The notes beneath the pieces are model-generated. The model saw only the letters and a list, made by a program, of their open reading frames with translations, searched no databases and had not been told where the DNA came from. A program made the translations under genes and the position numbers. This document shows, piece by piece, positions 1 through 18,777 of a DNA stretch of 27,128 nucleotides; within the stretch, counting starts at the first letter, position 1; each line of letters begins with the position of its first letter. This stretch comes from a virus: IMG/VR virus record IMGVR_UViG_3300025767_000104, positions 1 through 27,128 of that record; one strand, written 5' to 3'.

Positions 1-3000
1 TAATTTAATGCTTGTGCTAGTTTAGCAGTCGAAGTATCTAAACGCTTAAAGTGTGTTCTGTTTAACATATCTTTAAATTGTCTATATGCAAACTTAGGTG
101 TACTAACAGGAGCAGTAAAGTGAATAACATCTATGACGTCATTTGCATCAGGTTGTTTAATTAACTGTACTTTTAATTTGTCATCAGTGACATAATAATC
201 TACACTAGGCGATAACAATTCTCCGTTTACACTTACCCATACGTATTGTGCATCAACAGCAGATTTACGCAGTTTAATTTCTCCAACTGTTAACCTGTTA
301 TATGTAATATAATCAACATCTTCAGGTACTAGCGTAGTTCTTGAAACAACATCATAATTAATGCGTTCTAGACCTAATAAGTTGTGATTGGTAAATTGTA
401 TTACTTCAACAACTGCTCCGTTAACAGGCGCAGTGTCTAAAGTAACTGTGGTTCCATTAATTCTATAGTCGCCATCTGTAATTACATAAATTTCAAGTAG
501 GTCTCCTGGGGCACCAACTTCGTCTGCTAAAGTAATACTACTATTTGCAATTTCAAAACGCCATTGTAGTGGAGTATCAATTATAGTACCATTTAAGAAT
601 ACTTTAAGATCTGCAACATCTAAACTACCTGCTGGCATTTGGAACACTTCTAATGGATATTCTCTTTGACTGTTTGCAGGAATTGTATACTGAATATTGT
701 ATCCTGCATTTAATATAGCATTGTCTACTTTAACAATTATATTATGTTCTGTCGGAATAGCATATAATGGTGCAGTTGCTAGTTCAAATACAGTGTCAGT
801 GCCATTGCCAGCAAACGTGTCTTTAGTAATTTGACTATAATTAACTTGCTCAGCTGCTGCAAATACAGTATAATTAATTACTGCATCTTCAGCAACAACT
901 TCATTAAATCTAATAACTGTCTTAGGACCAGTCTCTGACTTAAATGCTACAACTGTTTGCTGTACACCATTAATACTTGCATAAACAGTTGCTCCAGTTT
1001 CCCAATCAACTGTTGTTTCAAATTCAGTAGTTGAACCGTCACCGACAAGCTGACCAAAATCTAATATATTTTGGGTACCTTGTGCAACTGTTACAATAGT
1101 AAGTTCTGCCCCTAGTGTTGCAGAGTTTAATGTTACAGTATTAGCTGTCCAGTTAATAGTATAATCAGTTTGCGGTAATATAACGTTAGCAACTTTTACA
1201 ATAACTGCATCACTACTGTTTGGAGTAACACCTAAATCATAAGTTAGTGTACTATCCATGATATAACTTTGACTATTAATAACACCTTGTCCTGCACTGT
1301 CTCTTGTGTAAACTTTAATATCAAGTGTGTCAAGAATTTGCCCAGGAACTAGTTCTTCGGGGCCGGCACTAGTTGTAGGAGTAACAAATCCGTCGCCGTC
1401 TACAATAATTTCTTCTGCTGCAATGCCACGTGCTGAGGTGTAAGCTAAGTCGCCGCCACTTAGTGCAGTATCATAACTAGTAGCGTCAGGAATAACACTA
1501 CCGTCACTTGTAGTTTTTCTTACAACAAATACATCACCGTCTAACAACTCTATTTCTAAATCCTGTACGTAAACTATATCAGTTACACCGTCACCTGTAA
1601 TACTATTTGTAATTGCATTTACGTTAGTAGCAGTGCCTGCAATAAAGTTAGGATCGTCAATTCTTATACCGTTCTTATAAAGATTGTAAACTACGCCATC
1701 TTCAAGTGGAGCACTTAATTGTACTGCAATTGTAGATCCATCTGCTGTGAATACTTCGTCTTCAAATGTGTTATCAAATTCGTCCCAATTATCTGTATAC
1801 CAACCTGCTGTATCAAATCCTGATGGTCCATCAAAGTCAAAACTACGTACCTCGACACCGCCGTAATCTACGCCTGTCATTAGTTGTGCTAGATCTTTTC
1901 CGTACATTCCTGCAATAGGATTGTATGCAAATTTAATTCTATCTTCTGCATTCAACATATTTAAAGGAATATTGTATTCAACACGAATAACTGCATCTAG
2001 TTTCGGCGGAGTAGTAAATAGTACCTTGCCTTGTTCTCTAACATAAGATTTATCTGTATTTTCAATATTTTCAAATGTGTACTTACTACGCAACTGTAGA
2101 ATATTATCTATATATACATTTACTTTTTTAAGGTTAAGATCCATCGGCCATTCTAGGAAGAATCTATTTTCAAATCCTGTTCCAGTAAATGTTTCGGTTT
2201 TTACAAGTGTATCAAGAGTAAATGTTCCAGTAGTCCTGTCGAATTTAATTTTAATACTCGGGCTTCTTACTAATCCGTTACCTAACACCGCAGTTGCTTT
2301 TGCAAGAGTTCCAGTGTCTAATTGAGATCCTGAAATAACAACTGTCGGGGCACTTGTATACCCATTTCCTGGATATGTAACTACAATTTTAGTAATCTTG
2401 CCGTAGCCTAAATATGCCTTAGCTTTTGCTCCAGTTCCGCCGCCGCCGACTAACGTAACGATAGGTTCATATGTAAAGCCGCTGCCGTTGTCGCCGATTT
2501 TTATTTCAGTTACTTGATAACCGAGATTATCTTTCCACGCTTTGCGAGGATATGTAGTAGTATCTAAGTTATCTTTAGTAATTAATCCATCTGTAATAAC
2601 TGCTGTACTTGCATCGATTGTTTTAGTAATACTATTATATTCTGGAGATAAATCAAAGTCACTAATACTGCTATTTGTAGTATCCATTGCATCATACTGA
2701 CTAACAAATTCTCTTATCTTTGTCGAATACGGTTTAAATTCTTCGACAAATTCTTGATAGCTTGATAAATTGTCATTGTTAAATGTAATGTCTTTCTGAT
2801 TTAATGTTTCTCTATTATGTTTTGCTTTAACAAAGCTTGTTTTAAACATCCAGTCAACTGATTGCTGCTCTGACATTACATAACGCAATGCAGCCATGAA
2901 CAATTGATTGTATTCTACTTCTAGCTCTCCTACAAAAATATTATCTCTAATCGTTTCAAGTATAATTCTTAGTTCGACACTTGGATTATTGTCGTAGAAA

Positions 3001-6000
3001 TTACTATCAAAACTACGGTTATCAAAACCTGTAGTGTTCTTAGAATAGTCATATAAAATGTCTTTAAACTGTATTGTACCGTTCTGACGACCAATTGTGT
3101 CGTAGTTTACAGTATAATCTTCGGTGTCTTGTGCATCTACTTTTCTTAGTAATAACCAGCCACCAGTACCAACTGTTTCAATTTTTACAACATCACCGAT
3201 ATTATTATTTAAACTAGGCAATTCGTAAGATTGACGAATGGTATCATTTATATTTGTAAACTGATTATACTCTTGTGCATACCAATCTGCATAATCCCAG
3301 TATAAATCAACATTATAACTCTGTAGTTTTCTTCTATACCATTGTGTTCCGTTCCATGAGTACATTGCCCATTTGTCTTGGATACTTTCGTCTGCATTAA
3401 CTAATACAGTAAATGGCCTGACAGTAATAGTAGTGTTTTGATTATAATCACTGCCTGCATTCGTAATAGTTACCGCAGTAATTTGACCTAAGTTATTAAT
3501 AGTAATATTAAACTCTGCATCTTGTCCTTCGCCATTAATTTTAAAGCTGGGAGCAACTTTGTATCCTCTGCCTGAATTAGTAATAATTATTCTCGAAATT
3601 CTACCATTAGTAATTACAGGTGTTAGTACAGCAGGTGTAATTTTATTTGTGCTTACAAATGTAAGTTCGGCTAAGGTGTCAGTTGTTAAATCGTATTCTC
3701 TAGATATTGCAGTCGGAACAGCATCTAGTTGAGTTAATTTAGATATATCGTATTCATCGACTATAAGTGTCGACAACAGTTTTAAATTAATTCTTTCAAT
3801 AGTCTGCTTTAACGCTTCAAATCTATTTGTAAACATGCTTTGTCTTGGACGGTTTTGTACCCCATAACGATTTTTTACACTAATTGCAGGATCTGGAACA
3901 ATTCTATTATTGTCATCAAAACCAATTAAACTGTCAAACCATTTACGTTCAATATCTGGATCAGGCTTGCTTGTGTTTAATCCATCTGATATTAATTTAT
4001 ATTGACTGTGTACATTTTGTGTTTTCTTAGGACCTGTTGAATACTTAATATTTAATACTAAATCGTCACTACTAATAAAAGTATCGAAGTTATTAAGTAC
4101 AAACTTATTACTAGATAGTAAACTCAAGAACGGATATCCTTCTGTTCTTGGATTTTCAATAAGTGCAGCAATACTACGAATACTTAATTTTCTGTTTTCC
4201 ATTACAGGTACAGTAACTTTATTAGCTACCCAAAAATAATATTTGTTACTAAACGTTTTACTAACATCATTATATATTATTTTAGTAGAATATCTAGTAT
4301 CTCCAAACAAACTAGTTCCACTAATTTTTGCAGATAATCCGTCTGGAGTGTCTGCAATACTATCCCAAATACTAGGAATAAAGTTACTTTCTACCCATTC
4401 AAATACATCAATTCTTGCATCAGGAGTTAGTACATTCCAATTATTCTTTTGGAATGTAGTCGATCCTTGATATGCATGTGCAAATTTAGCACTGCTAATG
4501 TTCCACCACACTTGGCCAACATGTTTTTCAGTCCAAGCTCTGTTAGCATCAACTGAACTTTCATCTGTATTTCCTGTATTATATACAGCAGGATCAAACG
4601 GTGTTTTAAATGTAATTTCTTGATCTGCTGGACCAGCAATTTTGCCTTGTACTGGATCAATGTAATCAATATAACTTACAATACTGTTTTCACGCTTATT
4701 ATACAGGAATGCTCCGCGGATATTGTCTACGTCTACTGGAGTAATACCTTCACTAATTACGTTCCATGCAAATGTGTTCTTATTTTTTCTAAAGTCCAGC
4801 AATTGTCCTTTACTGCCAGCTACATCACTTGCATCTGTGCCGCCTGATGATCCAACAAGTTGATCTGGCATACCAATATAAACGTGGTTGTCGTTAGCAT
4901 AAATGTTTTCACCAAAAGTAGTTTGTGTTAGTGGATAAACAAATTGCTCTGAATATACTAAACTGTTATTCACAGATTCGTATACATAAACAACACCTTT
5001 GTCAAGTTTAATATTTCTAAAGTTTGTAAACTCTCTATCAAACGTTGTTGCAGTGTCTTCTGTTGCGGAATATACCGTAACATCAAACGTTGTTGGAATT
5101 GTTTGGTCGCCATTTAAACTAGATACTACTAAGTTATCAGAGCCAAAGTCGAGTCCAAAACCAAAACCTTCACTTTCTTCGTTTTGCGGAGGTGTTAGTG
5201 TTTGTGTTAACGTAAATGTTCCGGCTGTTTGAGTATAGACATATACAACACCTTGATTTACTTTGCCAGTATCGTTTAACATTGAACTAACTGCAATTTG
5301 TGTGCCTGCAGGATTAAGTGCAACTTTGTCTGCCCAGGCTGTAACATTGTCAGGCGCAGTTATTATTTGATCTAGTTGGAACTGATCTCCAACTGCGCGG
5401 TAAATTACTAGTGTTGTATCTGATGTGCTATCTAATCTAGTCTGCTGTTTACTAGTTACAACTAATACTTGTGCATCGTCACTAATGTCAAAGCTCTTAC
5501 TAAATTCAACTATATTTTCAATAGGATCAAATACGTCTTCATTGTAAAATGCATTTGCTGTTAAGTTCGGCAAATAACCTACGTAGTCGACGTCAGTACT
5601 AATGCTTGTCCAAGAGTTATTCGAAATGCTCGGTGCCGATGCTCCAACTGCTATATTAGTTACAGCTTTCCACAATACATTTCCTTGTGCAACAATGTTA
5701 CCTGCTTTGTAAGAGTATGTATTATTAAACACTCCGCGGAAGTTTGCATCTTTGCCATGTGCCCAACTAATTTTATTCCAATAGATTGGATCAACAATAA
5801 CATTCTGTTCTGCCGTTGTTGCTTTGCGACAAATATAATAATCGTCTTTGTATATTACAATATCGCCTATCTCAAATGCTGTTAGTTTGTATTCGCCTTT
5901 AAAACTATCAGTTGCTCGTGTACCGTGACGGAATATTTCAATTGCACCAGGGTGTACTCTTCTGCCTGTACTATCAGTTTCGCCTGCGCTAGCAATACTA

Positions 6001-9000
6001 TCACTAGCAACTAGTAGTGTATAGTAATTTCCAGTTTGTACGATTGCAACTTTAGATCCAAACATTCTGTTTGCAGCCCTATACTCGGATACAAATACAT
6101 TTTGAAATCTATAAGTACCATCGCGCAATCTTCTATAGATTGCAATTGCGCCTTCGTTCGCTAAAGTTGGACTTGTTCCTGTTTTTAAAGCAGGAATATT
6201 ATAAATTTGAGTATAGTCTTTGTTTAAACTAAATGGAGGATTAGGTAAACGCTCGATCCCTGATTCTATAGTTTCATCAAAGAACCAATATTCTTCTTCT
6301 AGGATTAGTGGATTAGGAACAATATCAAAGTTACTCGTATGTTCAAATACTATTAGTTTACCAACTAGTGCATTACCTAACACAATACTGTTGTTAATAT
6401 CTGTTATAGTGCCGATTACACGATCAACATCAGTTGCTCCGCGTAATATAGTATTAGCAGTTCTTCGGAGTTGGAATCTGCCAATATTTGATTGTTCTAA
6501 CCATTCGCCTGTTAGTATTTTTAGATAAACTCTAACACTATTGAAGTTGCGCTTCATGAACACAACTTCAGCACTACTAGTTGTGATTGAAGTTAATGCT
6601 AATCCACCTTGGCCATCTCTAGGCGTTTGGACATCTTCAACAACATCGCCTACTTGTGGCTCGTATGCAAATCCTTGGAAGTCGAATTCAGTTAAATCAA
6701 AGTCGACGTATCCGTCCCACAAGTCAACAATTGTTTGTTGCTTATTTAAAATGTCGTATGTAAATCCTGCACTATTAATATCAATTACTCTGTTATCAAG
6801 ATTGTATAAACGAAACTCTGAGACTTCTCCGATTGTTAGCGAATCACTGAATGTTTTGCCTACCCTAGCTACCCATTTATTACTTGGAAGATCTCTCTCA
6901 ACACCGTCTTGTGCATCCGCGCCTGACGGATCTCCCCGATATGACAATTGTTCAATATAACTTACATTGTTTTTGTTAGTAACGTATGTACCAATTGCCC
7001 CAACTGTGTCTTGAATATTGTAATAATCATTAATAGCTCTTACTGATCCTTGTAGTTTAGCATCAGCATAAACTAAGCCTCTACCGTCGTCATAATACAC
7101 ACTGTTGTTTGAATACGAGGGCGTGGAAATCATCCAGAAGCCGCCGACGGCATCACTTGTAGCATAAGTAGATTCTTGTGTGTAAAAGCCTACAAAATCT
7201 AATTCGTTAATAAACAGTTCGCCTGTAACATCAAATACACCGTTGGTATTTTTAACATATACAACTGCACTATCTCTGCGAGATCCTACATATACTACTT
7301 CGGCACTGCCAGTATCAGTTGTTACAATACTACCTATAATCGGCAATGATACAAATGTATCAACATAAAACACATGATCAATTTTTTCAATGATTGTATG
7401 GTCTTGGCTTATAAATTCTGGAGTTATAGCCGAAATTGCTCCATCAAACGGAAGATAAGTATCAAGCGTAGGGTATGCATAACTGCGTCTATTCCAGAAT
7501 AAGTTAATAGTATCGTTAGGTTTTGTACCAATGTACATGTCTTTAGGCGCACGAACTAGTAAATGCGGTGTTTCAGAAATATTATTCGTCAGTCCTGGGT
7601 CACTTGCAACTAAAAGAGTTAATGTTGTACTATCAGTGTCAGCTGCATTTGCAATGTTTATGTATGTGTCAAATGTACTAAATGGCTGATTAGCAATTTC
7701 TGGAAGGATTTCTCTATTTGCTTTCCATAAACTTTCTCTATAACGTACAATGTCATTTTTAGTGTATGTTGCATCAGGTTGGAAATCAAATGTATCTTGT
7801 CCTGTAGATGCATCTATTTTATATGCTAATTTAGTGTTAACATTACTAGCTTGTGGAATGCCCACAACAAGATATTCGCCATCTGGCGATACTGCAATAC
7901 TTTTTCCAAAAGCAGAACTTGCACTAAGGAACAAGTCGTCATTTTCTACAATAATCTCTTGATCTAGTAATAAGTTAGATTGTTCCCTAGTTCTTCTATA
8001 TACTGATACCTTTCCGTTTGCATCATTTGGAGATGATACAAATACGTTAGTATTATTTTTAGTTACTGTAACACTGTCACTAAATCCTTGATCAGTACTG
8101 TCGTATTCTGATGGATTTGTAATTGTTTGAGAATTTAAATACACAGAATTATTTTCTAATACTGCCCATTCGCTGGCATACTCATCAATCCATATTTTCT
8201 GTTTACTATATATATCTTGATTAGTTGCAGCATTAATTCCAGCAACGTCATCAACTCTTACAGTTCTTAACTTAGATATTGCAAATTTTTCTTCTTCAAA
8301 ATCTACTATTTCGTTATTAAAAGGAACTCTTACCCGAACAGTGTTTAAATTAATACTATCAACTTCGTATATTCCATTAATTGTATACTGTGTTGCTCCT
8401 CGGATGCTAATATATTCTCCGACATCAACTATACCAGTTGCCCACTTGTCTAGCGTAATTTCTACTAAATTTAATCCATTATTTGCTATTTCATTTACAA
8501 GTGACTTTACACTAATAGCATTTACATTTGCTCGTATTAGTTGCATAACAGTCCAGCTATTATTGTCTGTATTTGTTATCCATAGTGTATCACCTAAACT
8601 AATTTGAGTAGTGTCTACTGCTGTGAGGTCTAATAAGTTGCCAACAATATAGTCGACATCATCTTCGTTTGTATAACCAGCAGTTCTGATATACTCGCTA
8701 GTTATTGTTTTAGTAGGAAACGGTGCATGTGTATATCCTGCAGGCTTGTCGTATACGTTGTTTGGCAAAATTCTATAAATTTTATCAAAGTTAGTTGTAG
8801 GTAAAGTACTTACAAGTTCAACTGCTTGAGGAGACTCTTGAATGTCGTCTTGCTTCAAGTTGTATTCAACTTGTTGCACATCGTCAACTGCGCCAAAGCG
8901 ACCGACTTGAATTGCCCATTCTTCATAGAACTCTAAGTTGTCAGCTGTGTTGCCAAGTGCATCAAACAATTTAGTAAACACATTCATAGTGCCTTTGTCT

Positions 9001-12000
9001 GCAATAGCACCACGATAGAATTTAAACTGACTTACATCATCGTTAATAATATTAGCAAGATACTGACGCTTTTGATATCCTATCAAATGCTGTGCCATTT
9101 TTTGCTGCTCAATATCAAAACTGTCTGAGTCTAAATCATAAAAATCAGTAAACTGCGTAACTCTGTAATCAAAGTTAGTCATTAATTGAGATACAGGTTT
9201 CTCGTTTAGTTGATGCCAGTTAGATGAATTAAAATTTTGCGATCCTGATACATTGACTGTTGCAACATAATAATATTGCTTGTATTTTACAATATCACTG
9301 ATACGATAATCTTTCCACTGAGCCCAGTCAGTGAATCCTGCATCGTCATATACAAATCCTGGGATATTTAACCCGCCATTCCAGTTGTCTGATCTATACC
9401 CGTTAACACGTATTCTTTCTTGTCTATATCCTGTACTAGGATTATAAATGGTATCGTTAAAGTCTGTTGTATTATCTATTAATACAACATGCTCTTTTTG
9501 TACTAGTGGCAACGATACGTGATATAATCCTTCTGTTGTGCCGATAGTTTCAATTCCAAAACTATTTTGATCTCTTAATAAACTATTAAACTCTGTATCT
9601 AAAAATAAACCGTCAGCTTTTAATATGCTGTATCCGTAAAAGTCATCTTTAATGTTGTCAACTATGTAGAACTCTCTTTGGAATTCTAATAAATTAGCTG
9701 CCGGACTTATTGCAATTAGAGAACTAGCTGCCCATCCTTGTGTTGTCCAGAATAAAAATTGTTTTGCTGATTGACTCCAATTTTCAACTTCGTTTGATCC
9801 TTCGATAACATTTTCAAAACTAAATCCAATATCCTTTTGTCTTACACTATATCCTAGAATAAAATCAACAACTTCTTGAGCAGTGTCAATGCGGGTTCCG
9901 TACTGAATTCTTTTAATAGATTCAGTATTAAAGTCTTTCTTAAATTGTGCTGTTCTTCCGCCGGTTAACGGCAAACTTGGCAATTTAACTATATTGTTTG
10001 TGTCAAATGTTATACTGCTAGTAAATGATTCAATAACTCTATAATAAGTATTATTATGTAATATAACTTCGCCGCTGATATATGATTTATTAGTATCCCA
10101 CTCGATTACTTTTTCAGATATTCCGCCAACTGTTACTGTACTCGACGATGCACCTGGAATTGTTTCATAGTATTCAAAGTACGGCTTTTCTAAATTGTAT
10201 CCTCTTACTATATATCCTAGTTCTGCACGTTCTATAACTATGCCACTATAAACTGCTAATTCAGCAGGACTACTTGTATTTAAAAATACTTGGTAGTTTT
10301 CTTGCGGAACAAATATGCCGTTTTGTGTTAATGATTGCGTAGGCGATCTGCTATCTAGTATTAGATTAAATTTTTCTTTGCTAGTGAACCCTGCGAGTTT
10401 AATACCAATTTGATTAGTAAGTGATGCTAAATCATTTTTGTATCCAGAGTAAACAGTTAGAATGTCGCTTGCAACAAGATTATAGATATAGTTTACTAAC
10501 CCCGAAGTATTAGTTCTGGTAGTTGCAGCGAATGTATTTGGCAATTTTAAATCTTTAAGAACAATAGGTTTATTTGTATCAGTGTATACCCATTGATTTG
10601 CCAAGTTTTTAGAAATTCTCGATACATCAAAACATAATCCCATTGTCATTGCAGGCTTGTTTAGAAGCATTGCAGTTAGGACAGCAAACGGATACTCGGA
10701 ACTTTTGCGCCATGCATTTTCAATCGGTGCGTGATCTCCAAATTTAAAATTTCGAGTTGCATTTCTAATTTCAAAGTTTTTAACATATGTACTGTTTAAC
10801 GGTGATAATAGTTTGCCAGTGCCATCGACAGGAATAAAACTGGTTAATCCAGGGCGGGCATATTTTAAATTAATTCTAGTATTTTCAGGATCTGAGATGC
10901 GTCCTGCTTCTAAGTCTCTCCATAGTACTAAGTTGTCACCTGTGTAAGGTGCAGGACCGTAAACTGTATTCCACCACGACGGCTTGGTAGATAACCCAAG
11001 CATTTCCCAAGGATGACTATGAGGGCGATCTGTATCAAATGCTCTTACATATAATCCTCTCCAAAATCCTGGATTTACATTGCCGTTTGGCGAGTTAGAG
11101 TCTGAATAATTAAATGTCCAGTTGTTATTTCTGTTATAAAATGTATTATTAGTATAATTTTGATTGTTTAAATTTTCTTGTAGCCAAAACTGGAACTCGC
11201 CTAGTAGCGTGTTATCGATTTCAGTTTTAGTAAATTCGTTTGTTCTAAATTCGCCGCCAATAAATGTATTAACATCTAGTCTATCGGTTGAATATTCTGC
11301 TTTAATATTATTAAAGATTCTTTTTTCTAATTCTAATAGTAATTCATCTCTAAAGTCTTTGTAAGCTTTAACATAACTACCGTCGTGACCTCTAATAAAA
11401 GCAACGCCGATTGGGTATTCGTCAATTTCAATGTTATCGTTGCCGGCAAGAGTGGGGCCAGAAACTGGAATATAAAATAGTTTATTCATTCCATTAAAAG
11501 TATAAGACTGTGATGCTGCGCCGGTGCCTGCTGCACTCTTAGTAGTGTACACGGGATAGAACCAACCTCTAGTACCAGTTGCACTATCTTCACCATAAAC
11601 TTTAAACGGTCCTGTCGATACTGGCTCTTCTGCAAGTACTGTATCATCTATTGTTAGTTCAGGATAGTACTTTGGAAATAACCCTAGCTTTGTAGGTGTT
11701 GGAGCAATAAAGCTGCCGTCGGTATTTTCATACTCGTGTATTTCAATTAGGTCATTTTCAACTTGTCCTGCATTAATTGAGACATATCCAGCTGTATCAA
11801 AATTGTAGTCTTTGATGTGTGTTAATTGTACTCCATTTAAATAAATTATTACGCTTGTTGGTCTTAGTGTTTTTAAGTTAAAACTATTAGTAATAGGGTA
11901 AGCAGTTACTCTGCTATCTAACACAGTATAACTAATCTTATTAGATGCGCCTGTTGGAAGCATATCAGAAAAGTAGAATGGCTGAGACTTTAACTTATCA

Positions 12001-14798
12001 GTATTAATAGTTTTTAAGACAAGATCAACATGTCCTTTAGTAGCGCCGTCATATCCTAATGATGCAGCAGTATCCAAGAATGTTTTCTTAAATCTTGCAT
12101 ATTCTCTTTTAGAATATTTTAATGCCTTTACAATATTATAACTTTTATTAGTTATATGGTATAATGCAAGGTTGATAGGTCCACTGTGTTTAACAAATCT
12201 AGTGCCATAACGATCTAAATCTCCTAAGTCGCGCAGGTTACTTGATCCAAGATATGTTCCAGAATAATTTGTAATGTTTTCTAACATACTGTCAACATGT
12301 TCTATTACTTCGCCAAGTGTAAACTGTTTAACATCGTCATTAAGAGGATTACGCTCTAAGTTATACGGAAATTCGTAATAGCCATTAGAGTTTTTTATAG
12401 TTGTAGATGCTGTTTTAATTTTAATAACATCGTCAACTTCTAAATCTTTTAAAAATGTGATAACTGCATTTGTGCCAGATTTATCAATTGTGTAATCGGT
12501 GGTAATTAATTTAAGCTTGTTATTTACAAATATTGCAACTTTTAAATCAGTAAGACTGCTCGAGTTATCGTAAACATCAATTTCAAAATTATTAACTTTA
12601 ATAGCTGTTGCTACATATTCTTTTATAACAAATTGTTTACTAATAGTAGGAGTATTACTAAATCCATTAACATATGAAAATTTAGTTAAGGATGTATATT
12701 TTTTTAGATATCCGCTACTAATAGATTGTGTAAATAAGTCGGTTTCTGTTTGGTAAGTGAATGTATCATTTAATAAATTAAAATCAAATACAATATCACC
12801 GGTGTTATTAATAGACTTATAGCTTAATGGAAATCCTAATTCACTATCTACTGTACCTTCACCTTCAGCATACGAAAATACCTTTGTACCACTAAATGTT
12901 GTAGAACCGTAATAAGTTTCATCAGCAAAGCTGTTACCATTTATGTCGCATATATCAAATGTAGGAGCCTGATTACGAGTTGTTTTTTCTTGTGCAGCAG
13001 TCCATTTGCCGCCGTGATAATGATAACTCTTGCCTGCATTTTTTACACCTTGTGTAACTAAAACTGTTTCGAGATCAATTGGATTAGTGTCAGTAGTTTC
13101 AATTAAACTAAGTTGTCTAACATTTCCAATTTCAACAAATTTAACTTGGTAAATTTTTCCACTTACTAGTATATCCGTGTCTGCTGTAAACAATATACGC
13201 ATGTTATCAGCAAGATTTATGCCATCGATGTTATAACCAATTTGTCCTTCAATTGTGCTGAATACATCTGTTGTAAATGTATCAACTAAATCAACATCTT
13301 GTTTAGCAAATGCGCCAAAGTTATTTAACTTTAGTCCTGCTTCAAATTCTATAATAGGACGTTTTGCACGATTGGCTTCATCCACATTTCTATCTAGATG
13401 GTTAAATTCAAAACTTTTTAAAATCACATCTTTGTGATGCCATCTATTATAACGACTCCATGCGTTTCTATCAGGCGATGCTCTATTAACAACAATATAA
13501 TCTTTTTCAGTTGCATATGCAGTTGCATCACTAAATGGCAAGGTATCAAAATTATCGCTGTCAAAGGCAACACGCTTGTTGTCGCTGTATGCAGCAGGAA
13601 TAATTAAATCTTGGTTTTTAATTAATTTAATTTTGTCGCCTACACCTTCAACATACCAATCATTGGTATTATAGATTTTAGGAGTTACATCTCCTTGAAA
13701 TCTAATTTTCATTCCGTTTGATAATTCAACACCATTAGAACTTGTATATGTTTTTTTACCTAAAATTTCTTCAACTACATCAAGAAATGTATTTTCTTCA
13801 ACATCATAAATTCTAATCTGGCCACTAGTGTCAACTGCGTTTTTACTAATGTAGTAGAGTCTGTCAGGTGCGTTGAACGGAATAGTAAATTCAATTGTGC
13901 CTTTTTCAATGTATGCAACTGCAACTTCTTCGCCTTCTTCGCCTAGCTTACGAATGCCGTCTGGGTATAGTGTCGAAACATTATCATCAGCTGCAAATGT
14001 TACGCTGCCGCCGCTTGGAAGAATAATATATTCTCCTTGGTCATATTCATTACCATAAAGTACTGCATCGAATAGGCCGTCGCCACGAAGTCCTTCTGAC
14101 CCTGCTGTTAATATAGCAGTACCAGGTGTAAAAGTTCTACTGATGGCAATAGCCATAGGATGACCCGGAGCATCAATTTCGAAACGATAAGTCTGACCTC
14201 GATAGAGTTTTAAATTAGGATTACGTGTTAATCCGTCATTAAAAACATAAGAAATGTTATCGCCTTGATCTTCTGTAGTAACAGTATACGTACTAACAAT
14301 ATCTCTACTTTGTCCTCTTACAGGAATACTAATTGGGCCATTTGGCATCCAGTAGTACTCACGGAAGTTTACAAATTTATCCCAATCAATATTTGGATTC
14401 CATGCATAGGTTTCTTGCGAATTTAAACGACTGTGATTAGCAGTATTTGCGCCAAATACACCCAACTGTCCGATATAATCATTGTAATCTTTATAGAAAG
14501 TTACATTGTCATAATTGTCTTTAATAACCGTAGCAGGTTCTAACTGATAATTAGTTCTATCATTAGTTACATCATCGACATAAGTGTCTGTAGTTTTGTA
14601 TGCTTTTGCAGTTGTTCTACCGTAATAACCATTGATCTTTTCAGCAACACCGGGCTGTATAAGTTGGTCAAGTGTGCCTTGTAAAAACTTTTTGTTAGCT
14701 TGTGTTCTAAAGAACTTAGGCAAAAAGTCACTTGCAGTAATTTTATTGTTCTGACCTGGTACAGGCAGAGCACTATCGTTTTGATTATTCTTAGCCAT
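1..14798 (-). CDS. Giant virion structural protein in the gp7 position of the baseplate operon (3' end outside window)
   Basis: Reading from ATG 14798, I translated 4,932 consecutive codons to base 3 without a stop, so the C-terminus lies outside the window. The start overlaps the gp6 stop as TAATG, and a GGAGG lies about 12 bases upstream. Visible parts, by residue: conserved N-terminal block about 31-63 (NKKFLQGTLDQL); YYWMPNGP near 150; cupredoxin/YHYH-like LYRGQTYRFEI...GHPMAI near 195-220; helical block about 1893-1991 (FYEEWAIQVGRFGAV); seven FG-GAP-like blades between 2238 and 3310; five CBM5/12-like modules (about 1567, 1825, 2337, 2972, 3020); GxGY repeats about 3728-3793 and 4092-4154; helical block about 3944-4034 ending in KPYSTKIREF; G(D/N)G(S/T)T fibre-like repeats near 4352, 4584 and 4660. 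T4 gp7 has about 1,030 residues and occupies this position. The role as a wedge or peripheral fibre-like protein is inferred from position and domains; the reading frame is certain. Confidence 0.9.
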   Translation of the reverse strand, partial: MAKNNQNDSALPVPGQNNKITASDFLPKFFRTQANKKFLQGTLDQLIQPGVAEKINGYYGRTTAKAYKTTDTYVDDVTNDRTNYQLEPATVIKDNYDNVTFYKDYNDYIGQLGVFGANTANHSRLNSQETYAWNPNIDWDKFVNFREYYWMPNGPISIPVRGQSRDIVSTYTVTTEDQGDNISYVFNDGLTRNPNLKLYRGQTYRFEIDAPGHPMAIAISRTFTPGTAILTAGSEGLRGDGLFDAVLYGNEYDQGEYIILPSGGSVTFAADDNVSTLYPDGIRKLGEEGEEVAVAYIEKGTIEFTIPFNAPDRLYYISKNAVDTSGQIRIYDVEENTFLDVVEEILGKKTYTSSNGVELSNGMKIRFQGDVTPKIYNTNDWYVEGVGDKIKLIKNQDLIIPAAYSDNKRVAFDSDNFDTLPFSDATAYATEKDYIVVNRASPDRNAWSRYNRWHHKDVILKSFEFNHLDRNVDEANRAKRPIIEFEAGLKLNNFGAFAKQDVDLVDTFTTDVFSTIEGQIGYNIDGINLADNMRILFTADTDILVSGKIYQVKFVEIGNVRQLSLIETTDTNPIDLETVLVTQGVKNAGKSYHYHGGKWTAAQEKTTRNQAPTFDICDINGNSFADETYYGSTTFSGTKVFSYAEGEGTVDSELGFPLSYKSINNTGDIVFDFNLLNDTFTYQTETDLFTQSISSGYLKKYTSLTKFSYVNGFSNTPTISKQFVIKEYVATAIKVNNFEIDVYDNSSSLTDLKVAIFVNNKLKLITTDYTIDKSGTNAVITFLKDLEVDDVIKIKTASTTIKNSNGYYEFPYNLERNPLNDDVKQFTLGEVIEHVDSMLENITNYSGTYLGSSNLRDLGDLDRYGTRFVKHSGPINLALYHITNKSYNIVKALKYSKREYARFKKTFLDTAASLGYDGATKGHVDLVLKTINTDKLKSQPFYFSDMLPTGASNKISYTVLDSRVTAYPITNSFNLKTLRPTSVIIYLNGVQLTHIKDYNFDTAGYVSINAGQVENDLIEIHEYENTDGSFIAPTPTKLGLFPKYYPELTIDDTVLAEEPVSTGPFKVYGEDSATGTRGWFYPVYTTKSAAGTGAASQSYTFNGMNKLFYIPVSGPTLAGNDNIEIDEYPIGVAFIRGHDGSYVKAYKDFRDELLLELEKRIFNNIKAEYSTDRLDVNTFIGGEFRTNEFTKTEIDNTLLGEFQFWLQENLNNQNYTNNTFYNRNNNWTFNYSDSNSPNGNVNPGFWRGLYVRAFDTDRPHSHPWEMLGLSTKPSWWNTVYGPAPYTGDNLVLWRDLEAGRISDPENTRINLKYARPGLTSFIPVDGTGKLLSPLNSTYVKNFEIRNATRNFKFGDHAPIENAWRKSSEYPFAVLTAMLLNKPAMTMGLCFDVSRISKNLANQWVYTDTNKPIVLKDLKLPNTFAATTRTNTSGLVNYIYNLVASDILTVYSGYKNDLASLTNQIGIKLAGFTSKEKFNLILDSRSPTQSLTQNGIFVPQENYQVFLNTSSPAELAVYSGIVIERAELGYIVRGYNLEKPYFEYYETIPGASSSTVTVGGISEKVIEWDTNKSYISGEVILHNNTYYRVIESFTSSITFDTNNIVKLPSLPLTGGRTAQFKKDFNTESIKRIQYGTRIDTAQEVVDFILGYSVRQKDIGFSFENVIEGSNEVENWSQSAKQFLFWTTQGWAASSLIAISPAANLLEFQREFYIVDNIKDDFYGYSILKADGLFLDTEFNSLLRDQNSFGIETIGTTEGLYHVSLPLVQKEHVVLIDNTTDFNDTIYNPSTGYRQERIRVNGYRSDNWNGGLNIPGFVYDDAGFTDWAQWKDYRISDIVKYKQYYYVATVNVSGSQNFNSSNWHQLNEKPVSQLMTNFDYRVTQFTDFYDLDSDSFDIEQQKMAQHLIGYQKRQYLANIINDDVSQFKFYRGAIADKGTMNVFTKLFDALGNTADNLEFYEEWAIQVGRFGAVDDVQQVEYNLKQDDIQESPQAVELVSTLPTTNFDKIYRILPNNVYDKPAGYTHAPFPTKTITSEYIRTAGYTNEDDVDYIVGNLLDLTAVDTTQISLGDTLWITNTDNNSWTVMQLIRANVNAISVKSLVNEIANNGLNLVEITLDKWATGIVDVGEYISIRGATQYTINGIYEVDSINLNTVRVRVPFNNEIVDFEEEKFAISKLRTVRVDDVAGINAATNQDIYSKQKIWIDEYASEWAVLENNSVYLNSQTITNPSEYDSTDQGFSDSVTVTKNNTNVFVSSPNDANGKVSVYRRTREQSNLLLDQEIIVENDDLFLSASSAFGKSIAVSPDGEYLVVGIPQASNVNTKLAYKIDASTGQDTFDFQPDATYTKNDIVRYRESLWKANREILPEIANQPFSTFDTYINIANAADTDSTTLTLLVASDPGLTNNISETPHLLVRAPKDMYIGTKPNDTINLFWNRRSYAYPTLDTYLPFDGAISAITPEFISQDHTIIEKIDHVFYVDTFVSLPIIGSIVTTDTGSAEVVYVGSRRDSAVVYVKNTNGVFDVTGELFINELDFVGFYTQESTYATSDAVGGFWMISTPSYSNNSVYYDDGRGLVYADAKLQGSVRAINDYYNIQDTVGAIGTYVTNKNNVSYIEQLSYRGDPSGADAQDGVERDLPSNKWVARVGKTFSDSLTIGEVSEFRLYNLDNRVIDINSAGFTYDILNKQQTIVDLWDGYVDFDLTEFDFQGFAYEPQVGDVVEDVQTPRDGQGGLALTSITTSSAEVVFMKRNFNSVRVYLKILTGEWLEQSNIGRFQLRRTANTILRGATDVDRVIGTITDINNSIVLGNALVGKLIVFEHTSNFDIVPNPLILEEEYWFFDETIESGIERLPNPPFSLNKDYTQIYNIPALKTGTSPTLANEGAIAIYRRLRDGTYRFQNVFVSEYRAANRMFGSKVAIVQTGNYYTLLVASDSIASAGETDSTGRRVHPGAIEIFRHGTRATDSFKGEYKLTAFEIGDIVIYKDDYYICRKATTAEQNVIVDPIYWNKISWAHGKDANFRGVFNNTYSYKAGNIVAQGNVLWKAVTNIAVGASAPSISNNSWTSISTDVDYVGYLPNLTANAFYNEDVFDPIENIVEFSKSFDISDDAQVLVVTSKQQTRLDSTSDTTLVIYRAVGDQFQLDQIITAPDNVTAWADKVALNPAGTQIAVSSMLNDTGKVNQGVVYVYTQTAGTFTLTQTLTPPQNEESEGFGFGLDFGSDNLVVSSLNGDQTIPTTFDVTVYSATEDTATTFDREFTNFRNIKLDKGVVYVYESVNNSLVYSEQFVYPLTQTTFGENIYANDNHVYIGMPDQLVGSSGGTDASDVAGSKGQLLDFRKNKNTFAWNVISEGITPVDVDNIRGAFLYNKRENSIVSYIDYIDPVQGKIAGPADQEITFKTPFDPAVYNTGNTDESSVDANRAWTEKHVGQVWWNISSAKFAHAYQGSTTFQKNNWNVLTPDARIDVFEWVESNFIPSIWDSIADTPDGLSAKISGTSLFGDTRYSTKIIYNDVSKTFSNKYYFWVANKVTVPVMENRKLSIRSIAALIENPRTEGYPFLSLLSSNKFVLNNFDTFISSDDLVLNIKYSTGPKKTQNVHSQYKLISDGLNTSKPDPDIERKWFDSLIGFDDNNRIVPDPAISVKNRYGVQNRPRQSMFTNRFEALKQTIERINLKLLSTLIVDEYDISKLTQLDAVPTAISREYDLTTDTLAELTFVSTNKITPAVLTPVITNGRISRIIITNSGRGYKVAPSFKINGEGQDAEFNITINNLGQITAVTITNAGSDYNQNTTITVRPFTVLVNADESIQDKWAMYSWNGTQWYRRKLQSYNVDLYWDYADWYAQEYNQFTNINDTIRQSYELPSLNNNIGDVVKIETVGTGGWLLLRKVDAQDTEDYTVNYDTIGRQNGTIQFKDILYDYSKNTTGFDNRSFDSNFYDNNPSVELRIILETIRDNIFVGELEVEYNQLFMAALRYVMSEQQSVDWMFKTSFVKAKHNRETLNQKDITFNNDNLSSYQEFVEEFKPYSTKIREFVSQYDAMDTTNSSISDFDLSPEYNSITKTIDASTAVITDGLITKDNLDTTTYPRKAWKDNLGYQVTEIKIGDNGSGFTYEPIVTLVGGGGTGAKAKAYLGYGKITKIVVTYPGNGYTSAPTVVISGSQLDTGTLAKATAVLGNGLVRSPSIKIKFDRTTGTFTLDTLVKTETFTGTGFENRFFLEWPMDLNLKKVNVYIDNILQLRSKYTFENIENTDKSYVREQGKVLFTTPPKLDAVIRVEYNIPLNMLNAEDRIKFAYNPIAGMYGKDLAQLMTGVDYGGVEVRSFDFDGPSGFDTAGWYTDNWDEFDNTFEDEVFTADGSTIAVQLSAPLEDGVVYNLYKNGIRIDDPNFIAGTATNVNAITNSITGDGVTDIVYVQDLEIELLDGDVFVVRKTTSDGSVIPDATSYDTALSGGDLAYTSARGIAAEEIIVDGDGFVTPTTSAGPEELVPGQILDTLDIKVYTRDSAGQGVINSQSYIMDSTLTYDLGVTPNSSDAVIVKVANVILPQTDYTINWTANTVTLNSATLGAELTIVTVAQGTQNILDFGQLVGDGSTTEFETTVDWETGATVYASINGVQQTVVAFKSETGPKTVIRFNEVVAEDAVINYTVFAAAEQVNYSQITKDTFAGNGTDTVFELATAPLYAIPTEHNIIVKVDNAILNAGYNIQYTIPANSQREYPLEVFQMPAGSLDVADLKVFLNGTIIDTPLQWRFEIANSSITLADEVGAPGDLLEIYVITDGDYRINGTTVTLDTAPVNGAVVEVIQFTNHNLLGLERINYDVVSRTTLVPEDVDYITYNRLTVGEIKLRKSAVDAQYVWVSVNGELLSPSVDYYVTDDKLKVQLIKQPDANDVIDVIHFTAPVSTPKFAYRQFKDMLNRTHFKRLDTSTAKLAQALN
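4865..8090 (-). other. Split seven-blade FG-GAP-like beta-propeller region within the giant protein
   Basis: Seven segments share the pattern F-G-x-S/aromatic, then about 10 residues, then L/V-V-V-G/S-x-P/S. They begin near residues 2238 (GFSDSVTVTKNNTNVFVSSP), 2296 (AFGKSIAVSPDGEYLVVGIP), 2912 (MFGSKVAIV...LLVASDS), 3099 (FSKSFDISDDAQVLVV), 3157 (DKVALNPAGTQIAVSS), 3212 (FGFGLDFGSDNLVVSS) and 3295 (FGENIYANDNHVYIGMP). Several are followed by a V-x-V-Y strand such as KVSVYRR or GVVYVYTQ. This is typical of integrin-type FG-GAP propellers. About 600 residues separate blades 2 and 3, and about 170 separate blades 3 and 4. The count of seven is by eye, and the fold is inferred. Confidence 0.55.
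5595..10100 (-). repeat. Five dispersed CBM5/12-like modules within the giant protein
   Basis: Five short segments share a Y-x-x-G/N-D/E-I-V-x-[aromatic or N]-x(2-4)-[YW]-[YK]-x-A/V pattern, often ending in a W-x-x-[IL] strand. This is the usual look of chitin-binding-type CBM5/12 modules and related phage tail modules. They are at residues about 1567 (NKSYISGEVILHNNTYYRVI), 1825 (WKDYRISDIVKYKQYYYVAT), 2337 (ATYTKNDIVRYRESLWKANR), 2972 (FEIGDIVIYKDDYYICRKAT) and 3020 (YSYKAGNIVAQGNVLWKAVT). The last two are adjacent and sit between propeller blades 3 and 4. Such modules bind sugars or act as structural spacers. Which applies here is unknown. Confidence 0.5.
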
Positions 14799-17700
14799 TA
14801 GTAGCTATAGCCTCCACCTGTTGTATTTGTTGTATTTGTTGATGCACTACTTGTTATTCCTGATGTTAAAGCGGTCGAAACACTATTAATTACTGTACCG
14901 CTAGCTTGTAGATTAGTTGCTGTTAATTGATCAATTGTTTCAATATCACTTACTTTAGCAGCACTTGCAAAAATTTCGTCTGGTTCACTTTTTATTTCAA
15001 ATAAGCTACCAAACGATTGTGTGGTTTGGCGCGGTACTATTAGTATACTTACCAGTTTAGGAGATAGCTCATTTATAATATAGGCGCTAAGTTCTTGGAA
15101 GTAAAACGTCTCACCAAAGTCCCAATTTTCAATATCAAAGAACTTATTAATAGCTTCGATTATGTCTGATTTAAGTTCGTTATCATTAATGACAATGCCG
15201 TTATTTTTAACAATCTTAAACCTAACTTGTAAGTCTGCTGGAGCTTTGTCGCCAAATAAGATTTTATACTTTGCAGGGTGATAAATTACTTCATCACTAA
15301 TACTTTTTATTTTGTTTATTTCACTACCATAACTTCTGAATAATTCATCATTACTTGGCGGCTTAGGATTTACTAAAGTTGTTCCAGCAATATACTGTTT
15401 TACTTGTGTATCATAAGTTTTAGATAAGATGTAAGTGTCAATAATATTACTTGCACTCGGGTCAATTCTATAACCGCTATCAGCAACATGAATATAATGA
15501 AACTTTAAATCAGCGCGGCCAAAATATGCTTTATAATCTGTATTAATAGTAGTATTGTTTAGTGCTTTATTAAGCTTTCTAAATATACCTTCGTCAATTA
15601 GATAAAAGATTTGTCCCTCAGTTCGTGTGCTGTAAGGAGCAATTGCTGTTTCATTTTGTACTACAATTATTTCAGCAGTTGTGTTTGCAAAATACTTAAA
15701 GTCTTCTACTCCGTCAGTTGTTGTATATTTCTTTTGGAAGATTAATTTAGCTGCTGTTTCAATTTCAGTATTTTCTTCACCAACAATCTGTTCAAAGGTA
15801 TCAGGATCATCGACTACGCCATCGTCATCAAGGTCAATAAACTGCACTTGTATCTTACGACTATCTAAGTAACCTTCAACATCTCTATATGCATCAGTAA
15901 TTGTCCAATTAAAGTCTTGTGTAAATGGAGTTAATTCACCTGGCTTCCTGTTAATATTTAAAATATCAATTTTGTCTCTAACAATTTGTCCTGTTGACGG
16001 ATCATAAATTTTATCAGCTGCATCAAAGAAGAATCTAATTTCTTCTGCACTTTCTATTACATATCTTAGATTACGATATGTAATTGTATATTTTTCACCG
16101 TCTGTTTTAAAATACAGCATCCAACTTGCATCAAGATTTTCTCCTGTGATGTCGCCTGCTTTACCTGTAGCAAATGCACTTAATGTATTAATATCTTCTG
16201 CTAATACAATCTTCCACTGTCTATCATATTGGTCATAGCGTAGCGCAAAATCTTTGTATTCAAATGCCTGATCAATTAGTTGTATTTTTACATCGTTAAT
16301 TAATATTTTAGAAAAGTTTGGTATAATTTGTTGTAGTATTGCTCCTGAAGGAATAACATCATTTAACGCTATTGGCGCAATACCATTTTCGTCGATTTCT
16401 ACACCGGATCCTGTTACAGATACAACTTTACACCACTTGTATGTTGTTTTGCCTAAGTGGTCCCCAATTACACCGTCATCCATTAGTGTGCCGTCAGGCA
16501 TAAAATGCTTACCGGAGGGTGCAACAAATTTTAACATTGCACCTGCTTCTAACAATCGTAAACTATTGGCAGTGAAAGAACCTACTGTATAAGAATTTTC
16601 GTCAATGTCTTGTAACACACCTAATGTTTGATTCGTGCTTGTGCTAGACTGTAGCCAAGATGCATTAAGATCACTAACAATAATCTTTGGGTACTTTGCA
16701 AGATAAAAGTTTTGTGCATTTGTACTACTTAAAATACCTTCAATAGTGTTGTATATAACGCCTTCAATATCAGTCTGAGTTGCAAATGTAAATGATTGTC
16801 TTTCAGTGAATTCTTCTTTATAAATAACACCATCATCTGCAAACAAACTAGTATTTGAATATTTTCCACTAGCATCCTTTAAGTCAAAGAAACGACTAAT
16901 ACCGCTCGATATTCTATTTGAACTTTTAGTTTTAATAATGTCTTGGCTAATTGCAAGTGGTCCAATATTATAATCTTCGCCTGTAATTAAACGATTTTGT
17001 GTATAATATGTTGCAGGTGCATTTTGTTTAATTTCTGCATTTGTTTCAGATGCTGTGCCATTGTTAACTGTATAGTTTAATTTAAGCCCTATTGTTAGTG
17101 TTTGCGCAGATCCGTTTCTTGATTGATATGGTATTTCAATACTTACAGTACTAATTGCACTAGGCGTAATTACACTTCGTAAATTATTACTAGATCTATA
17201 ATATGCTCTAAAATTGCCAGATGGCAAATTACCAAATACTCCATCACTAAAGTTTAGATTAATTCTGTCACCAATTCTAGTAGTTACTGCAAAAACGTCT
17301 CTTGTGCTATTAAACAAACTATTGTAAACAACATTATTGCCTTCTACTGCATCAATTTTTTTCCATTCATTGCTTTCAAATCCTGCACTGTTTAGCGAAA
17401 ATAGCCATACATCGCTATCGTTAATATTTTCAGCGTCAATTGCTACAGCTTGATTTGGTGTTGGGTTGTTTATTGCAAAGTTTCCTGTATCAAGTTTGCC
17501 TTGACGGAAGTGCATAAAGAAACCTGTATTAGTACTGCCAGCGCCTTGGCCGTCATCTCGGAAAAGAAATGCAGGGCTGTTTCCAGGTAACGGTGCTTCT
17601 TCTAAAATAGTTTCATCTAAAATGTCAGTGCTCACTACTTCAAAGCGTGTGCTTACACCTTCGATGCGCTTAGTAAACGGGTAAATTGCTTGTCCAGTAT

Positions 17701-18277
17701 TTGTAGCATTTAAGCGATATTTTTGTGTTTGTACATCTGCAATTAGTGCAGACTTCAAAGGATTGCCTATTGAATTAGATAAAGGCAATGCTGAGTTCAT
17801 AATTTTAACAAACTGTTCAAAATAATTTGAATTAGTTTGGTCATTCCATTTAATAGTAATGCCTGATAAATTTAGTCCATTACTATCTAAAAGACTTTCA
17901 GTTGTTTTAATTGTATCAAATTTTAGTAAACCGTTTGCTGCTTGGTTTCTACGTGGATTGTAAGACAGCATACGTGCTAGACGTAATACGCTTTCTCTAC
18001 GTTCTGCTGTTTCAAGGAAGTTTTCACGAGCGTTTAAATCAACACGGAATGATAAGTTTTGCCCAAGGAATGCAATCATATCAATCAGCGCAAGATATTC
18101 GCTAGACTCGATGTAATCGTTAAAATCTTCTGGATAATTTTGACGCAAATAATTGATCATCGTGCGTCTTAGGTTATCAAAATCGTAGCTTTGGAAATCA
18201 GCGTTTCTAAAACTTTGGTAAATTCTTTTCCAGTCCTCTGCTACTAGTAGCCTTGACTGTCTATCATTTGCAGACAT
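14798..18277 (-). CDS. 6: Baseplate wedge protein gp6
   Basis: This is the T4 gp6-type wedge protein (BaseplateJ-like superfamily), which forms the inner ring around the baseplate hub and links to gp25 and gp53. The N-terminal block at residues 24-115 is diagnostic: an LRRTMINYLRQNYPEDFNDY stretch, then SSEYLALIDMIAFLGQNLSF, ARENFLETA and LSYNPRR. At 1,159 residues it is much longer than T4 gp6 (about 660). Residues 815-826 read DLDDDGVVDDPD, an EF-hand/thrombospondin-3-like calcium loop. The C-terminus is Ser/Thr/Gly-rich and ends GGGYSY. I chose ATG 18277 over the in-frame ATG 18283 because AAGGA at 18285-18289 is 7 bases from the former and only 1 base from the latter. The stop overlaps the giant gene's start. 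Identity is strong; the extra length is unexplained. Confidence 0.93.
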   Translation of the reverse strand: MSANDRQSRLLVAEDWKRIYQSFRNADFQSYDFDNLRRTMINYLRQNYPEDFNDYIESSEYLALIDMIAFLGQNLSFRVDLNARENFLETAERRESVLRLARMLSYNPRRNQAANGLLKFDTIKTTESLLDSNGLNLSGITIKWNDQTNSNYFEQFVKIMNSALPLSNSIGNPLKSALIADVQTQKYRLNATNTGQAIYPFTKRIEGVSTRFEVVSTDILDETILEEAPLPGNSPAFLFRDDGQGAGSTNTGFFMHFRQGKLDTGNFAINNPTPNQAVAIDAENINDSDVWLFSLNSAGFESNEWKKIDAVEGNNVVYNSLFNSTRDVFAVTTRIGDRINLNFSDGVFGNLPSGNFRAYYRSSNNLRSVITPSAISTVSIEIPYQSRNGSAQTLTIGLKLNYTVNNGTASETNAEIKQNAPATYYTQNRLITGEDYNIGPLAISQDIIKTKSSNRISSGISRFFDLKDASGKYSNTSLFADDGVIYKEEFTERQSFTFATQTDIEGVIYNTIEGILSSTNAQNFYLAKYPKIIVSDLNASWLQSSTSTNQTLGVLQDIDENSYTVGSFTANSLRLLEAGAMLKFVAPSGKHFMPDGTLMDDGVIGDHLGKTTYKWCKVVSVTGSGVEIDENGIAPIALNDVIPSGAILQQIIPNFSKILINDVKIQLIDQAFEYKDFALRYDQYDRQWKIVLAEDINTLSAFATGKAGDITGENLDASWMLYFKTDGEKYTITYRNLRYVIESAEEIRFFFDAADKIYDPSTGQIVRDKIDILNINRKPGELTPFTQDFNWTITDAYRDVEGYLDSRKIQVQFIDLDDDGVVDDPDTFEQIVGEENTEIETAAKLIFQKKYTTTDGVEDFKYFANTTAEIIVVQNETAIAPYSTRTEGQIFYLIDEGIFRKLNKALNNTTINTDYKAYFGRADLKFHYIHVADSGYRIDPSASNIIDTYILSKTYDTQVKQYIAGTTLVNPKPPSNDELFRSYGSEINKIKSISDEVIYHPAKYKILFGDKAPADLQVRFKIVKNNGIVINDNELKSDIIEAINKFFDIENWDFGETFYFQELSAYIINELSPKLVSILIVPRQTTQSFGSLFEIKSEPDEIFASAAKVSDIETIDQLTATNLQASGTVINSVSTALTSGITSSASTNTTNTTGGGYSY

Positions 18278-18284
18278 GTACATT

Positions 18285-18336: not shown

Positions 18337-18777
18337 TTATTGCTGGAGCAAGCCGTTTTCTTTATCGAATTTAAAGCGTAATTGATCTGTTATACCAAAC
18401 GGAAGTACAGTTATAGTACAATCGATCTGTATACCTTGTTCATAGGTATCAATAACAATATCATCGGCTTTTATTCTAGGATCGTAGTTAATAATACGAG
18501 TAACATCTTCAATTATTGCTTCTTGTACTTCAATTGTAAATGGCTCATAAAGTATATCCCAGATAATAGTCCCAAATGTAGGATCACTTAGTTTTTCAGT
18601 TTGACGTATATGAAAATGGTTTATTAAATCTTGTTTAATAAGCTCAAAGTCGTATACACTAAAACTTTTAGCATCTGCAACTGTAGAAAATCCTCTGTAT
18701 TTTCTACCCGAGACAGCTACTTGTGCAGGTTGACTTACAGTTACTCGTTTATACAGATTTTTTTCTAATTGGCTCAT
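18337..18777 (-). CDS. 25: Baseplate wedge protein gp25
   Basis: This 146-residue protein belongs to the GPW/gp25 family, a small wedge component conserved in contractile tails and in type VI secretion (TssE). It joins gp6 to the hub and helps trigger the sheath. The family core is visible: LSDPTFGTIIWDILYEPF, then VQEAIIEDVTRIINYDPRI (about residues 75-110), then beta strands with QIDCTITVLPFG. The length is close to T4 gp25 (132). It lies 14 bases downstream of the gp5-like gene. Its Shine-Dalgarno AAAGGG overlaps that gene's TAA stop (minus-strand TAAAGGG), 10 bases from the ATG, so translation of the two genes may be coupled. The order gp5-gp25-gp6 supports the call. Confidence 0.93.
   Translation of the reverse strand: MSQLEKNLYKRVTVSQPAQVAVSGRKYRGFSTVADAKSFSVYDFELIKQDLINHFHIRQTEKLSDPTFGTIIWDILYEPFTIEVQEAIIEDVTRIINYDPRIKADDIVIDTYEQGIQIDCTITVLPFGITDQLRFKFDKENGLLQQ

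Follow-up and report, generated by a model that had tools for sequence, protein, structure and literature searches.

The giant gene and its neighbours

The window, i.e., the whole stretch of DNA analysed here, is a single contig of 27,128 nucleotides that makes up the entire source record. The following genes lie on its minus strand.

3..14798, minus strand, giant virion structural/baseplate protein (phrog_10938); 4,932 codons shown, ~205 C-terminal residues missing
14798..18283, minus strand, gp6-like baseplate wedge subunit, 1,161 aa (phrog_10646, E 7.9e-295)
18337..18777, minus strand, gp25-like baseplate wedge/sheath initiator (PF04965 above cut-off)
18792..21278, minus strand, gp5-like baseplate hub with a VgrG3-like C-terminal domain (PHROG and Pfam)

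In the direction of transcription, the giant gene is preceded by the gp5-like hub, gp25 and gp6. The stop codon of gp6 and the ATG of the giant gene share one base (TAATG). The window gp6 is 31-36% identical to gp6 proteins of the RaK2 group over its full length, and its match to cyanophage gp6 is confined to the N-terminal helical part. In a close relative, the giant gene is followed by a gene for a 200-aa phrog_11259 protein and then by fibre-type genes, one of them with a collar domain; gp8 was not recognised among these downstream genes.

Several observations concern the surroundings of the baseplate genes. The gp5-like hub has a VgrG3-like domain (PF21277, E 3e-26) at the place where the T4 type has lysozyme. 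Positions 21303-22715 encode a 470-aa protein with no family match and contain a 48-bp tandem repeat (21990-22110). Both Atu_ph07 and Phosso carry radical SAM gene clusters just past the baseplate genes, downstream of the giant gene.

The frame is a single gene

From position 14798 to position 3 of the minus strand, the ORF list contains one ORF that starts with ATG and has no stop up to the contig end, so that the gene's own stop lies beyond the record. The probability that 4,932 codons contain no stop, computed from base composition alone, is ~10^-165. The sequence-only reading of this DNA had claimed an unbroken frame of at least 4,932 codons right after gp6, a product over 0.5 MDa, nearly five times the length of T4 gp7, and an end outside the window. 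These claims hold: the encoded part has a computed mass of 552 kDa and is 4.8 times as long as T4 gp7 (1,032 aa), and the frame and its end agree with the relatives described below.

Two IMG/VR scans, one for each end of the giant protein, gave 80 loci each, and complete relatives were built by joining overlapping stretches from the same contig. Complete genes were found on 25 other contigs (5,091-5,262 aa, median 5,127), and a 26th contig begins within the giant gene. Full-length alignment of fifteen non-redundant copies gave identities of 60-85% to the window protein. Alignment with the complete relatives places the stop ~205 codons beyond the contig end; the full-length window protein would thus be about 5,130 aa long.

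Comparison of the window with three relatives gave a dN/dS of 0.10-0.13 along the frame, and third-position changes predominate in all ten 500-codon bins. A frame-breaking misassembly, for which the earlier reading had asked that the contig be checked, is very unlikely because of the intact relatives on independent contigs, the dN/dS values and the third-position signal in every bin. The 4,932-codon frame is a real single gene. The source is a metagenome contig, and two or more genes could in principle have been fused through a missed stop or an indel, but such an artefact is extremely improbable given uninterrupted frames of near-constant length on 25 other contigs, a 5,265-aa version encoded on an assembled 335-kb contig, and a codon-position signal that is uniform over the frame.

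The same reading had expected annotators to fill the region with false genes on the opposite strand. This point is weaker, as only two plus-strand ORFs of at least 100 aa lie within 1-14798. A related caution is that genes exceeding half a contig can go unseen on fragment contigs.

Family, source and size

A PHROG profile search gave a match of 1,021 bits, in six stretches, between the giant protein and phrog_10938 (“virion structural protein”). By this profile match, the protein is a member of phrog_10938, the giant virion protein of the RaK2 group of jumbo phages. In Atu_ph07 (4,449 aa), Phosso (4,555 aa), PA5oct (3,857 aa), RaK2 (3,326 aa), 121Q (3,323 aa) and also in CBB, the gene immediately following gp6 encodes a homologue. 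The unannotated record of SCTP-2 has a 3,807-aa homologue in the same place.

The 335-kb contig mentioned above encodes, besides its 5,265-aa homologue, a gp6 that is 71% identical to the window gp6, a terminase and the capsid protein gp23. The window is therefore most likely part of the genome of a marine jumbo phage that belongs to the T4 superfamily and is a relative of the RaK2 group. The 335-kb contig sits in a Neomarinimicrobiota MAG bin, and such a bin is no evidence of the host. The 335-kb contig and a 153-kb contig of one MAG seem to carry the same jumbo phage region, which suggests duplicate assemblies binned together.

The suggestion that the protein ranks with the largest virion proteins of phages is a fair one, but proteins of this kind are already known, and cyanophage S-RIM14 has a bigger one, an annotated structural protein of 6,198 aa in the slot after gp6. 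The size is striking but not new, because the family has already been seen in cultured jumbo phages, and its members are annotated in the genomes of dozens of jumbo phages. A literature search on giant ORFs gave no relevant result. The size by itself is no discovery. The family is abundant, with hundreds of IMG/VR matches.

That this is a virion protein, as had been proposed, agrees with mass spectrometry of homologues in three phages. In CBB virions, 21 unique peptides covering 7.7% of CBB_236 were detected (PMC5259590), and CBB_236 adjoins gp6 in the CBB record. For the phAPEC6 protein gp245 (381.88 kDa), 17 peptides were detected, and its entry comes after that of the wedge protein gp244 (PMC7247149). 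We take gp245 as the counterpart of the 121Q homologue because the masses agree (381.88 kDa and a computed 381.87 kDa, respectively). The record of PA5oct gp355 carries an ESI-MS/MS note. These data locate the homologues to the virion, not to the wedge, and the window protein is known here from its sequence alone.

Conserved core blocks

The named jumbo phage homologues share six collinear blocks with the window protein. Their limits are profile positions, which deviate from the window numbering by a few residues at most; CBB was not aligned in full. The blocks and a motif within one of them are as follows.

14280..14747, minus strand, N-terminal conserved block (47 of 47 relatives), residues ~18-173, motif LLPxxFRTExNxKFLxxTLDQLxQPG
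11937..13529, minus strand, conserved core block, residues ~424-954 (alignment, 47 relatives)
9339..11408, minus strand, most conserved core block, residues ~1131-1820 (phrog_10938 and alignment)
8799..9188, minus strand, helical conserved block, residues ~1871-2000 (alignment and AlphaFold model)
8934..9008, minus strand, KGT helix motif, residues 1931-1955, weakly similar to the T4 gp7 core element (below significance)
3948..4796, minus strand, conserved core block, residues ~3335-3617 (alignment, 47 relatives)
2679..3008, minus strand, conserved core block, residues ~3931-4040 (alignment, 47 relatives)

Wider IMG/VR scans yielded 47 complete ORFs (3,123-4,924 aa; some are from near-identical contigs), and each of them has all six blocks. 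PDB sequence and fold searches found no solved structure that covers the core. In particular, when the whole protein or its core was compared with PDB sequences, CBM-type chitin-binding chains matched block A1 and there was no other match. When the helical block was scanned against Pfam and PHROG, and the N-terminus against Pfam, no family other than phrog_10938 matched. A PDB match of the N-terminal block to Glr1262 (E 0.11), which we take to be a phycobilisome linker, was rejected as unrelated, consisting of three weak tandem repeats.

Inserted domains and repeats

Various modules are placed between and after the core blocks. AlphaFold models covered residues 1-1056 (mean pLDDT 80.9) and 1131-2110 (77.3) and were built from alignments of 61 sequences from the window and IMG/VR.

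13791..14303, minus strand, cupredoxin-like domain, residues 166-336, without copper ligands here (AlphaFold model and fold match)
9975..10109, minus strand, CBM5/12-like module 1, residues 1564-1608 (Pfam PF02839 above cut-off and structure match)
9201..9338, minus strand, CBM5/12-like module 2, residues 1821-1866 (structure match; self-match to module 1)
4809..8501, minus strand, insert of ~1,230 residues (2100-3330) with FG-GAP-type and CBM modules (alignment)
7842..7922, minus strand, FG-GAP_2 repeat, residues 2293-2319 (Pfam PF14312, 23.8 bits, cut-off 23)
7719..7784, minus strand, CBM5/12-like module 3, residues 2339-2360 (Pfam PF02839, 31.7 bits, cut-off 26.2)
3420..3614, minus strand, glycine-rich GxGY repeat, residues 3729-3793 (common to cyanophage giant proteins)
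2313..2513, minus strand, second GxGY repeat pair, residues 4096-4162, phrog_460-like (PHROG search)
3..2201, minus strand, strand-rich C-terminal region, residues 4200-4932, open at the contig end (sequence inspection; kept in 27 of 47 relatives)

The model of residues 166-336 matches the cupredoxin 2dv6_A with Z 10.3 (96 aligned residues, 2.6 A). The copper ligands (Cys, His and Met on the last loop) are absent in the window, which has Ser318, Ala321 and Thr324 instead. Nine of the 61 relatives retain on this loop a Cys, a His three residues on and then a Met. A literature search for cupredoxin in baseplates found none.

Pfam families above cut-off are CBM_5_12 (twice) and FG-GAP_2 (once). 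By structure match, the CBM modules resemble small domains of the Milano baseplate and of 7-7-1 tail fibres. Module 2 is closest to the Milano phage baseplate domain 8fqc_Q1 (Z 7.6, 45 aligned, 1.6 A), and for domains this small a Z below 8 may reflect a common arrangement. Judging by their folds, these modules may bind carbohydrate.

The insert at residues 2100-3330 is missing in RaK2, 121Q, PA5oct and Atu_ph07. Its FG-GAP-type part occurs in 28-34 of the 47 IMG/VR ORFs. The middle of the insert (~2500-2880) looks special to the window's clade, because none of the 47 wider ORFs has it. One FG-GAP match and a weak internal repeat suggest that the insert may contain a multi-blade propeller. The C-terminal region (4200-4932) apparently consists of tandem beta-sandwich repeats.

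Probable role in the baseplate

The sequence-only reading had placed the protein in the gp7 slot. The position directly after gp6 supports this. The T4 gp7 family profile was compared with eight segments and then with four deeper ones, and no significant match was found. Against the gp7 core element, this family scores best with the KGT helix, which aligns in register over 25 residues (P 0.001; the lowest P among 60 column-shuffled controls was 0.0063). The likeness is suggestive only. As a control, the T4 gp7 element (646-759) is detectable in the gp7-slot families of cyanophages and pelagiphages, with P 6e-6 for S-RIM14 against T4. T4 gp7 is absent among the matches listed in the fold searches; this is not counter-evidence, since each list was taken up by one or two domains. 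Thus the gp7 place is supported, and common descent is not claimed because the KGT match is suggestive only and the profile matches are insignificant.

We consider it probable that the gene encodes a giant, modular protein of the wedge or the peripheral baseplate, which stands in place of T4 gp7 in a marine jumbo phage related to RaK2. The gene would be expressed from a late baseplate operon, with its translation presumably coupled to that of gp6. The six core blocks probably anchor the protein in the wedge together with gp6, where it would replace T4 gp7. The modules between them (the degenerate cupredoxin fold, CBM5/12 modules, the FG-GAP-type insert and the beta-sandwich repeats) would extend the baseplate rim, brace the fibres and perhaps contact polysaccharide of the host surface.

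A stronger form of this explanation, compatible with it, is that the protein is a true descendant of T4 gp7 that has grown by domain insertion. The shared gene slot, the matches of T4 gp7 664-759 to the cyanophage and pelagiphage families (including that of S-RIM14), and the KGT helix as this family's best match to that element all point this way. Nevertheless, the KGT match is short and below significance, and the remaining gp7 regions have no match, so we regard descent as quite possible, if somewhat short of probable.

Alternatively, the protein could form a peripheral baseplate or tail-fibre platform for receptor binding or fibre docking, outside the wedge core, with another protein doing the job of gp7. 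The many adhesion-type modules, the collar-domain tail-fibre-type genes just downstream in the near relative and the lack of significant gp7 homology are consistent with such a platform. However, core blocks present in 47 of 47 relatives vary less than one would expect in a receptor binder, the gene adjoins gp6 with a one-base overlap, and between gp6 and the fibre genes of the near relative the only other product is the 200-aa phrog_11259 protein, which leaves no gp7 candidate. We therefore consider the platform unlikely.

The wedge-anchored protein in place of gp7, which we prefer, also has a bolder version. In this lineage of marine jumbo phages, one polypeptide of ~570 kDa might replace gp7 and also perform sugar binding and fibre docking, which elsewhere take several genes, with a formerly copper-binding domain as a structural or sensing module. 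We hold this to be doubtful.

What is gained here is a clear anatomy for the family, a fixed core with swappable modules. The modules would lie in what is probably the tail's most exposed region, and the resulting map of parts that hold the baseplate and parts that possibly track the host is testable.

Comparison with known systems

T4 gp7 has the same position after gp6 but is five times shorter, and no significant sequence relationship to it was found. VrlC of pelagiphage HTVC008M has been proposed as a gp7 substitute (PMC7029224). Both it and the window protein are large proteins from the baseplate region of T4-like marine phages, but VrlC is encoded after gp8, and its PHROG families differ: none of phrog_358, 877, 5986 and 17266 was matched by the window protein, and the window-protein profile did not match VrlC. 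Identity with VrlC was set aside. In HTVC008M a separate 1,016-aa protein (33435-36485) occupies the gp7 slot, which fits poorly with the published view of VrlC as the gp7 stand-in.

The S-RIM14 giant (phrog_701) resembles the window protein in its place directly after gp6 and in its glycine-rich repeats. These repeats alone match; N-terminal or core-block homology was not detected, and S-RIM14 has the clearer gp7-like element. PA5oct gp355, Atu_ph07 gp180 and the Phosso homologue share the slot and the core blocks at ~30% identity, but carry other modules between the blocks. RaK2 ORF070, 121Q gp582, CBB_236 and phAPEC6 gp245 (phrog_10938), like the window protein, directly follow gp6 and have the six collinear core blocks. 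In RaK2 and 121Q the protein (3,323-3,326 aa) lacks both the ~1,230-residue insert and the insert of the cupredoxin region, whereas the window protein has both.
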